From Teretinema zuelzerae (GTDB lineage Bacteria; Spirochaetota; Spirochaetia; Treponematales; Treponemataceae), in assembly GCF_021021555.1 (NCBI RefSeq), contig NZ_JAINWA010000001.1:372001-436000 (forward strand): a stretch of DNA of 64,000 nucleotides. The letters are read 5' to 3'. Made by a program: the position numbers and the translations under genes. Positions 15,266 to 17,375 of the stretch are shown one piece after another (the stretch's first letter is position 1; every line of letters starts with the position of its first letter). The notes below the pieces were generated by a model. It worked only from the letters and a program-made list of their open reading frames with translations, searched no databases and was not told where the DNA came from.

Positions 15266-15308
15266 AAGAAAAAAAAAGGCTCATCCCCGGAAAACCGGAA
15301 ACGAGCCC
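15266..15308 (-). terminator. Terminator of the GGGtGRT transcript
   Basis: On the minus strand: GGCTC...GAGCC with an inner CCGG/CCGG pairing, followed by nine T. It ends the NifU-like/GGGtGRT message about 150 bases after its last stop codon. Confidence 0.85.
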
Positions 15309-15310
15309 TT

Positions 15311-15466
15311 GAAGAAATAACGCTACGCGTTATTTCTTCTTGGAGTTTGCCGCTGGTGCGGCAAACCTCCGCTATGCATTATTAACGCTGCGCGTTATTT
15401 CTTCATATGGAGAATTTCAGCAAAGATGAAATTCTCCGGAAGAAGCGACGTATACGTCACTTCTTC
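15311..15466 (-). repeat. Array of five consecutive hairpins in the 3' region of the GGGtGRT gene
   Basis: Seen in order: 15311-15339 (13-bp perfect stem, 3-base loop); 15342-15370 (12 bp, one bulge, GTTTGCCGC arms); ~15373-15403 (imperfect stem carrying a second copy of the first hairpin's core TAACGC/GCGTTA); 15409-15437 (11-bp perfect stem); 15439-15466 (11 bp plus one G-U pair in RNA, containing the TGA stop of the gene). The motif GAAGAAATAACGC or a near copy recurs three times. The 356-base stretch 15101-15456 holds only these hairpins, a terminator and the Dabb promoter. Confidence 0.85.
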
Positions 15467-16458
15467 ATTGCCTCGCTGATCGCTACCGCTACCGCGACGG
15501 ACGCGCCGACCATGGGGTTGTTTCCCATGCCGATGAGTCCCATCATTTCAACGTGAGCGGGTACGGATGAAGATCCGGCGAACTGCGCGTCGGAGTGCAT
15601 GCGGCCCATGGTGTCGGTCATGCCGTAGGAAGCGGGACCGGCGGCCATGTTGTCCGGATGCAGGGTGCGTCCGGTACCGCCGCCCGAGGCGACGGAGAAG
15701 TACTTCTTGCCGGCGTCGTTGGTTTCCTTTTTATAGGTACCGGCGACTGGGTGCTGGAAGCGGGTCGGGTTTGTGGAGTTTCCGGTGATGGAAACGTCTA
15801 CGCCTTCCTTCCACATGATCGCGACGCCCTCGCGGACATCGTCGGCTCCGTAGACGCGGACGGCTGCGCGCTCGCCTTCGGAATACTTGAATTCCTTGAC
15901 GATTTTAAGCTCGCTGGTGTAATAGTCGAACTGGGTCTGCACATAGGTGAAACCGTTAATCCGGCTGATGATCTGGGCGGCGTCCTTTCCAAGACCGTTC
16001 AAACACACCTTGAGGGGGGTCGAGCGGGCGCGGTTGGCGCTCTTGGCGATACCGATCGCGCCTTCGGCTGCGGCGAAGGATTCGTGTCCGGCAAGGAAGC
16101 AGAAGCACTTGGTCTCGTCGGAAAGGAGCATCGCGGCGAGATTTCCGTGTCCGATGCCGACCTTGCGGTCGTCAGCGACTGATCCGGGGATGCAGAATGC
16201 CTGGAGGCCTTCGCCGAGCGTGCGCGCGATGTCGGCAGCGTTCTTCTCGCCCTTCTTGATCGCGATGGCGGCGCCCACGATATAGGCCCATTTCGCGTTT
16301 TCGAAACATATCGGCTGGATGCCGGCGACTAAACCGCCGACGTCCACGCCCGCGTCGTCGCACACCTTCTTGGCGTCTTCGACAGAGTTGATTCCATATT
16401 TCTTCAACACGGGAAGAATCTGGTTTATTCTGCGCTCGTAGCTTTCAAACAGTGCCAT
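15457..16458 (-). CDS. GGGtGRT family protein
   Basis: 333 residues. Contains the sequence SVASGGGTGRTLHPDNM around residue 262, the motif after which this family of unknown function is named. Other conserved-looking stretches are GSVADDRKVGIGHGNLAA, CFLAGHESFAAAEGA and GLIGMGNNPMVGASVA. No signal peptide or clear membrane helix. The upstream partner 15 bases away is a NifU-like scaffold protein; this two-gene pairing is known across anaerobes. A role in metal-cluster handling or a redox reaction is inference. The stop codon lies inside a hairpin stem. Confidence 0.93.
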   Translation of the reverse strand: MALFESYERRINQILPVLKKYGINSVEDAKKVCDDAGVDVGGLVAGIQPICFENAKWAYIVGAAIAIKKGEKNAADIARTLGEGLQAFCIPGSVADDRKVGIGHGNLAAMLLSDETKCFCFLAGHESFAAAEGAIGIAKSANRARSTPLKVCLNGLGKDAAQIISRINGFTYVQTQFDYYTSELKIVKEFKYSEGERAAVRVYGADDVREGVAIMWKEGVDVSITGNSTNPTRFQHPVAGTYKKETNDAGKKYFSVASGGGTGRTLHPDNMAAGPASYGMTDTMGRMHSDAQFAGSSSVPAHVEMMGLIGMGNNPMVGASVAVAVAISEAMKK

Positions 16459-16473
16459 AATTTCCTCCCTTCC

Positions 16474-17166
16474 TTACTCGTGCCTGGGGTCGACATACTT
16501 CGCGGCGTCGGCGAAGCGACCGTAGGTGCCCTTTGCTTTGGCGAGCGCCTCGTTGGCGTCCGTTCCCTTCTTGACCGCGTCCATCATTTTTCCGAGGTTA
16601 ACGAACTCGTAGCCGATGATCGCGCCCTCTTTGTCCACGCCGAGGCGGGTGACATAGCCTTCCGCGAGCTCAAGATAGCGGGGACCTTTCGCCTTGGTGG
16701 CGAACATGGTTCCGACCTGGCTGCGAAGACCTTTTCCGAGATCCTCGAGCGAAGCGCCGACTACAAGACCGCCCTCGGAGAAGGCGGACTGGCTGCGGCC
16801 GTATACGATCTGGAGGAACAGCTCGCGCATTGCGGTATTGATCGCGTCGCATACGAGGTCGGTGTTAAGCGCCTCGAGGAGGGTCTTTCCGATCAGGATT
16901 TCTGAAGCCATCGCGGCGGAGTGGGTCATACCGGAGCAGCCGAGGGTTTCAACAAGGGCTTCCTCGATGATTCCGTCTTTGATGTTCAGAGTCAGCTTGC
17001 ACGCGCCCTGCTGGGGAGCGCACCAACCCACGCCATGGGTAAAACCGGAAATGTCCTTGATTTCCTTTGCCTGCACCCACTTTCCCTCCTGGGGAATCGG
17101 TGCCGGACCGTGATAAGCGGCCTTGGCAAGAGGACACATGTGTTCGACTTCAGTCGAATAAACCAT
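16474..17166 (-). CDS. NifU/IscU-like iron-sulfur scaffold protein paired with GGGtGRT
   Basis: 230 residues. The stretch LGCSGMTHSAAMASEIL, then IGKTLLEAL, lines up with the IscU/NifU segment around its second cluster cysteine. GWCAPQQGACKL supplies further Cys. The third canonical Cys of IscU is not clearly in its usual context (DLVCDAI is the nearest), and the C-terminal ~90 residues are specific to this subfamily. It probably binds or transfers an Fe-S cluster to the GGGtGRT partner; that is inference. AAGGAG precedes the ATG. Confidence 0.88.
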   Translation of the reverse strand: MVYSTEVEHMCPLAKAAYHGPAPIPQEGKWVQAKEIKDISGFTHGVGWCAPQQGACKLTLNIKDGIIEEALVETLGCSGMTHSAAMASEILIGKTLLEALNTDLVCDAINTAMRELFLQIVYGRSQSAFSEGGLVVGASLEDLGKGLRSQVGTMFATKAKGPRYLELAEGYVTRLGVDKEGAIIGYEFVNLGKMMDAVKKGTDANEALAKAKGTYGRFADAAKYVDPRHE

Positions 17167-17254: not shown

Positions 17255-17294
17255 GGAGCGTCTTTCTGCAGGGGAAAGCCTTCCCCTGCGCTCC
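17255..17294. repeat. Hairpin-forming inverted repeat next to the 50-bp palindrome
   Basis: GCAGGGGAA (17268-17276) pairs with TTCCCCTGC (17281-17289) around loop AGCC, and outer GGAGC pairs with GCTCC across a seven-base bulge. Confidence 0.8.
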
Positions 17295-17298
17295 GAAA

Positions 17299-17348
17299 GT
17301 AAAGCCCCCTTTATATACCTACCGGTAGGTATATAAAGGGGGCTTTAC
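17299..17348. repeat. 50-bp perfect palindrome, no loop
   Basis: Bases 17299-17323 and 17324-17348 are exact reverse complements. The centre is TACCTACCGGTAGGTA and the arms end GTAAAGCCCCC. No T-run follows on either side, so it is not a normal terminator. It lies between yigZ and the promoter region of the NifU-like gene. The rest of 17167-17375 contains a TATACA box near 17225-17230 (minus) and nothing coding. Confidence 0.93.
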
Positions 17349-17375
17349 GTTTCTCCGCTACCCCTTCTCCGCCGC

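Follow-up and report, generated by a model that had tools for sequence, protein, structure and literature searches.

The five hairpins behind the GGGtGRT gene of Teretinema zuelzerae are built from repeats of a unit with two hairpins, A and then B (GGAG..CTCC), joined by TT; the B hairpin is conserved across a family, whereas the A hairpin is specific to each locus. They occupy 15311–15466 on the minus strand of the window, the stretch of 64,000 nucleotides that was analysed (G000:C1:372001–436000, G000 being the 3.62-Mb source genome), and fill the space between the stop codon of the gene and an intrinsic terminator. In the NifU-like/GGGtGRT operon the array forms the 3' UTR. We consider it rather probable, from comparison with other gene ends, that it represents gene-end units of a repeat family related to Rfam TD-2, in which the 3' arm of A arose by fold-back copying and the block was then duplicated locally. 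Covarying perfect stems usually count as proof of functional RNA. Here, copying seems to have produced the partner of the coding arm, independently at several genes for which sister genomes provide both filled and empty sites, and the locus offers a natural test case for the origin of hairpins and of 3' UTR structures. It also suggests that Rfam families of the TD-1/TD-2 kind may need to be re-read as products of a process at the DNA level.

The GGGtGRT gene (15457–16458, minus strand) encodes 333 amino acids matching PF14057 (Pfam E 5e-194), and by this protein the nearest named relatives of the source genome are Spirochaetales MAGs, among them Treponema sp. MAG11. Upstream in the same operon lies the NifU-like gene (16474–17166, minus strand), with a weak NifU_N-like match to PF01592 which at E 2e-4 is just short of the cut-off. 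The gap upstream of this gene carries a 25-bp near-perfect inverted repeat, AAAGTAAAGCCCCCTTTATATACCTACC..GGTAGGTATATAAAGGGGGCTTTACG, at 17268–17351, and a second hairpin at 17268–17289.

The coding end of GGGtGRT reads ATG AAG AAG TGA, the stop codon being at 15457–15459. In H1, the first A hairpin (15439–15466; 12 bp including one G-U), the 5' arm consists of the last codons together with this TGA (15459–15457) and the 3' arm is their inverted copy. It is followed by the first B hairpin, H2 (15409–15437; GGAGAATTTCA..TGAAATTCTCC). H3 (15383–15406), a truncated A copy of sequence ATGAAGAAATAACGC GCA GCGTTA, repeats the Met-Lys-Lys-stop end of the gene directly and, of the pairing arm, has only the inner portion, forming a hairpin of 6 bp at 15383–15397. 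The array is completed by the second B hairpin, H4 (15342–15370; GGAGgTTTGCCGC..GCGGCAAACTCC), which lies inside a sub-threshold TD-2 match, and by the third A hairpin, H5 (15311–15339; GAAGAAATAACGC GTA GCGTTATTTCTTC), which is perfect, with 13 of 13 bp and a loop of 3. The motif GAAGAARTRACG occurs three times, at spacings of 65 and 62 nt. The intrinsic terminator 3' of the array (15275–15310, minus strand) has 16 pairs and then a U tract; a GC-rich stem followed by a U run is found at 15310–15275 only and in none of the five array hairpins. An earlier sequence-only reading had described five stem-loops, one of them containing the stop codon, and a thrice-repeated stop-region motif. All of these were found on the minus strand and at the coordinates given by that reading, to which the terminator has to be added as a sixth hairpin.

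Lying between stop codon and terminator, the array should be transcribed. Its predicted RNA fold has −76.6 kcal/mol, against −34.9 ± 4.0 for shuffled sequences (z −10.5; 0 of 200 shuffles), and z becomes −12.6 once the terminator is included. Two folds compete: without the terminator the 5' arm of H3 pairs in the best fold with the 3' arm of H5 and encloses H4, whereas with the terminator H5 folds locally. Nine clusters of adjacent hairpins were counted in 864 kb of the source genome (the window and 40 sampled stretches) versus no adjacent pair in the control of one Markov-1 random sequence per stretch.

Fixed sequence patterns recovered little, and the family was revealed only by structure-based search. 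A covariance model of the unit, R1, was made from an N-padded alignment of nine sequences, with the 11 outer pairs of each hairpin modelled. It is a small model, trained partly on sequences described here including the window locus, where H1–H2 (15466–15409) score 50.6 bits and H4–H5 (15311–15370, plus strand) 49 bits, both as training sequences. Matches were detected in 10 of the 12 genomes of the genus, at 0 to 6 per genome and mostly at loci outside the training set; the relative G037 has 15, and at E 1e-4 matches were obtained in 22 of 244 genomes of the order, mostly of family f5. The supposition that the hairpins belong to a family of small palindromic repeats was borne out, the two-hairpin unit recurring at other loci in low copy number. 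In the source genome four operons have a copy after the 3' end of 16S rRNA, and a further copy separates tRNA-Arg from tRNA-Ser. A DNA search of this genome for near-identical dispersed copies found none but the locus itself and a terminator-like stretch at C3:1521601. Around 88 GGGtGRT loci from other phyla and genera R1 gave nothing better than E 0.4; the unit is therefore lineage-specific and independent of the GGGtGRT gene family.

Three of the four unit-bearing 16S rRNA 3' ends (G000:C1:209811, 216069 and 222326) are spaced by ~6.26 kb, which suggests near-tandem rRNA operons. Where the unit stands beside a tRNA gene (L183 in G000; L175 and L257 in G028), its A hairpin lies within a few nt of the tRNA 5' end.

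Judged from sequence and layout, the unit family corresponds to Rfam TD-2 read from the opposite strand. TD-2 (RF03162, in a clan with TD-1, RF03155) shows the same two-hairpin layout, a GAGUUU..AAACUC hairpin being placed next to a variable one. Architecture and position agree: in G037 about five sites carry an R1 match overlapped by a TD-2 match on the other strand, and the same holds at the GGGtGRT end of G009, which TD-2 matches in its own right. In the array, TD-2 matches H3–H5 (15307–15396, minus strand) with 32.1 bits (E 0.009 per genome), and since this is under the gathering score of 48.7 bits the array is classed as TD-2-like rather than as a member. Rfam labels TD-2 as sRNA and TD-1 as cis-regulatory; the stop-codon overlap and the gene-end mirroring seen here are absent from these labels. 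Elsewhere in the source genome, at C1:1122477 (L121:1501–1598), a TD-2 match of 51.3 bits exceeds the gathering score; this site has a near-duplicate ~120 nt away and adjoins an ABC-transporter gene pair. Other Rfam families, namely PyrR, ctRNA and sX14, matched as generic hairpins only and were discarded.

Seven genomes of the genus, the source genome included, hold the GGGtGRT gene; many of the genomes compared are fragmented MAGs. In six of the seven a hairpin starts in the last codons and spans the stop, then comes a GGAG..CTCC-type hairpin (a GAAG..CTTC variant in G004) and then, usually, a terminator. The sequence-only reading had looked to close relatives for the same hairpins; these are present wherever the gene is present, intact in five and in a decayed version in G005. 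Variants in the coding arm (AAA/AAG, TAA/TGA and, in G009, GCG for AAG) are mirrored in the opposite arm. Behind the B hairpin, G008 carries an additional ATGAAGAAGTGACG and G011 a diverged ATGGAAAAATAACC. The duplication of the Lys-Lys-stop end proposed in that reading is consequently not private to the window.

The two arms of the A hairpin vary in concert. Among 36 matches at loci that were not used to train R1, each of the 11 pairs of helix A shows changes in both arms. Pairing amounts to 99.1%, a percentage leaning towards R1 because the alignment is fitted to the model, and G-U to ~1.5% (5 of ~340 cells); helix B of the same matches keeps GGAG/CTCC and then varies. By direct reading of the sequences, A arms are 99% complementary to their own partner versus 42% to the partners of other loci. 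The near-absence of G-U pairs and of one-sided changes argues against slow compensatory evolution. Such covariation is no proof of RNA function, because copying from arm to arm can produce it.

In four genes, GGGtGRT, pgk, purF and an OmpA-like gene, the 5' arm of A consists of the last codons of the gene, usually including the stop. Where relatives lack the hairpin, their coding end is the same and the mirror arm is missing. The OmpA-like gene has the unit in G011 only, and in the other 11 genomes of the genus it ends LEK/LDK-type with neither arm nor B hairpin. The pgk hairpin, a 16-bp stem with the stop codon in the loop, is found in G003 and G009 and in none of G000, G005, G006, G007 and G008, the G002 and G010 sequences in this comparison ending at the stop. 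At purF a perfect stop-codon hairpin of 16–18 bp is present in G002, G007, G008, G009 and G011 (for G011 with one mismatch or G-U allowed), decayed in G005 and absent from six genomes, with a 3' arm that in each case follows the synonymous codons of the genome concerned. In these last three genes one arm pre-exists and its reverse complement has been gained in one lineage, the pattern by which template switching is recognised. Since the coding arm came first, it is the 3' arm that is derived. The idea that each copy had acquired its own pairing arm fits these comparisons, in which the arm resembles the gene end copied in reverse orientation. In a survey of 1,640 genes sampled from four genomes as mechanically called ORFs, 6 had perfect stop-spanning hairpins of at least 9 bp versus 0 in both control sets (shuffled downstream sequence and internal positions, each a single random draw). 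The same mirroring, apparently independent at other gene ends, points to a quirk of DNA copying that would build gene-end hairpins.

Template switching is documented as a single-step route to perfect hairpins and to their maintenance (Monttinen and Loytynoja 2022, PMC8794818). Given this process and a coding arm that pre-exists, we infer fold-back copying at the stop region, the comparison being of orthologues whose non-coding flanks are too diverged to align. The hairpins of PMC8794818 are alike in their perfect stems from inverted copying of adjacent sequence and in paired changes without G-U intermediates, but they concern rRNA and other RNA genes, whereas those described here are at the stop codons of protein genes and often come with a conserved second hairpin. 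According to this model, the gene end would be copied by fold-back (template switching) to yield the 3' arm, the same process would keep both arms of A matched, and the copying would often be coupled to the family B hairpin. In the source genome, the block of gene end plus hairpins would then have been duplicated locally, giving A-B-A'-B-A followed by the terminator. The account covers the 3' arm of A and the local duplication; any effect on mRNA stability would be secondary. Against copying, the persistence of the GGGtGRT hairpins in six of the seven gene-bearing genomes could mean selection for function. More tentative is a generalisation by which an active stop-proximal fold-back process in this spirochaete lineage, whether template switching by the polymerase or an element making inverted copies of its target, would repeatedly mirror last codons, capture a conserved second hairpin and multiply the block into arrays, TD-type RNAs being a residue of this process and not riboregulators; we regard this as conceivable, though we would not expect it to hold.

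Function of the array RNA is possible. A selected 3' UTR device, shielding the mRNA from 3'-5' exonucleases or acting on terminating ribosomes, with arms co-evolving by compensation, would be consistent with the position between stop codon and terminator, with the very stable fold and with hairpins, one of them decayed, in every genome of the genus that has the gene. Gradual compensatory evolution, however, is at odds with the scarcity of G-U pairs and one-sided changes; moreover, the same fold-back comes and goes between genomes at purF, pgk and the OmpA-like gene, and the G005 version has decayed. Taking both sides together, we think such a device unlikely. The array might also be no more than a transcription terminator strengthened by additional hairpins, serving a highly expressed operon, its last hairpin being a classical terminator and such hairpins being present in some relatives at pgk, a gene that is usually highly expressed. 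This is improbable, since the five array hairpins are devoid of U tracts and start inside the coding sequence, and related units lie within rRNA and tRNA transcription units, following 16S rRNA or separating tRNA genes, places at which a terminator would do harm.

Integron attC sites, too, are located behind stop codons, and the array shares this position at a gene end. Chromosomal integrons exist in Treponema (PMC3607928), but 15271–15490 contains neither a GTTRRRY nor a RYYYAAC core site, the unit has two separate near-perfect hairpins in place of one imperfect palindrome, and a cassette array was not seen around the GGGtGRT operon. With the core sites missing, the attC reading was abandoned as hardly credible. 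REP/BIME elements moved by a REP-associated tyrosine transposase (Y1_Tnp/RAYT; PMC2817692) are likewise short extragenic palindromes, sometimes arrayed, and Y1_Tnp genes do occur, one in the source genome and three in G037. REPs usually number >100 copies per genome (PMC2817692), whereas 0–6 units were detected per genome of the genus and the sequence of the A stem is not conserved. Furthermore, the element was found in the flanks of 0 of 14 Y1_Tnp loci, where R1 gave nothing better than E 2.5, and G009 and G011 hold several copies with no Y1_Tnp detected. We rejected RAYT-driven movement on the evidence of these flanks and rate it very unlikely. The REP-like outcome that the sequence-only reading had envisaged thus holds for the dispersal of some copies and fails on their small number per genome and on a link to REP/RAYT, which was not found; of its overall interpretation, the guesses of a repeat family and of a duplicated gene end are the parts that stand. 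Double-hairpin elements are known from fungal mitochondria. Repetitive hairpin elements of sponge mitochondria have been reported (PMC2800124). By the description given of them, these mitochondrial elements are alike as dispersed hairpin units in intergenic DNA, but they are organellar.

An independent parallel to the window array is found in another genus, at the pgk 3' end of G014 (L258:251–418). Three direct repeats of 56 nt follow one another there, each containing two hairpins and the final pgk codons with their stop. In the source genome, the core of another palindrome, TAGCTTCAYRTGAAGCTA, spans the stop codon of two unrelated genes (L146:14200–14265 and a second gene end), and at one of the two a second copy of the palindrome lies alongside.
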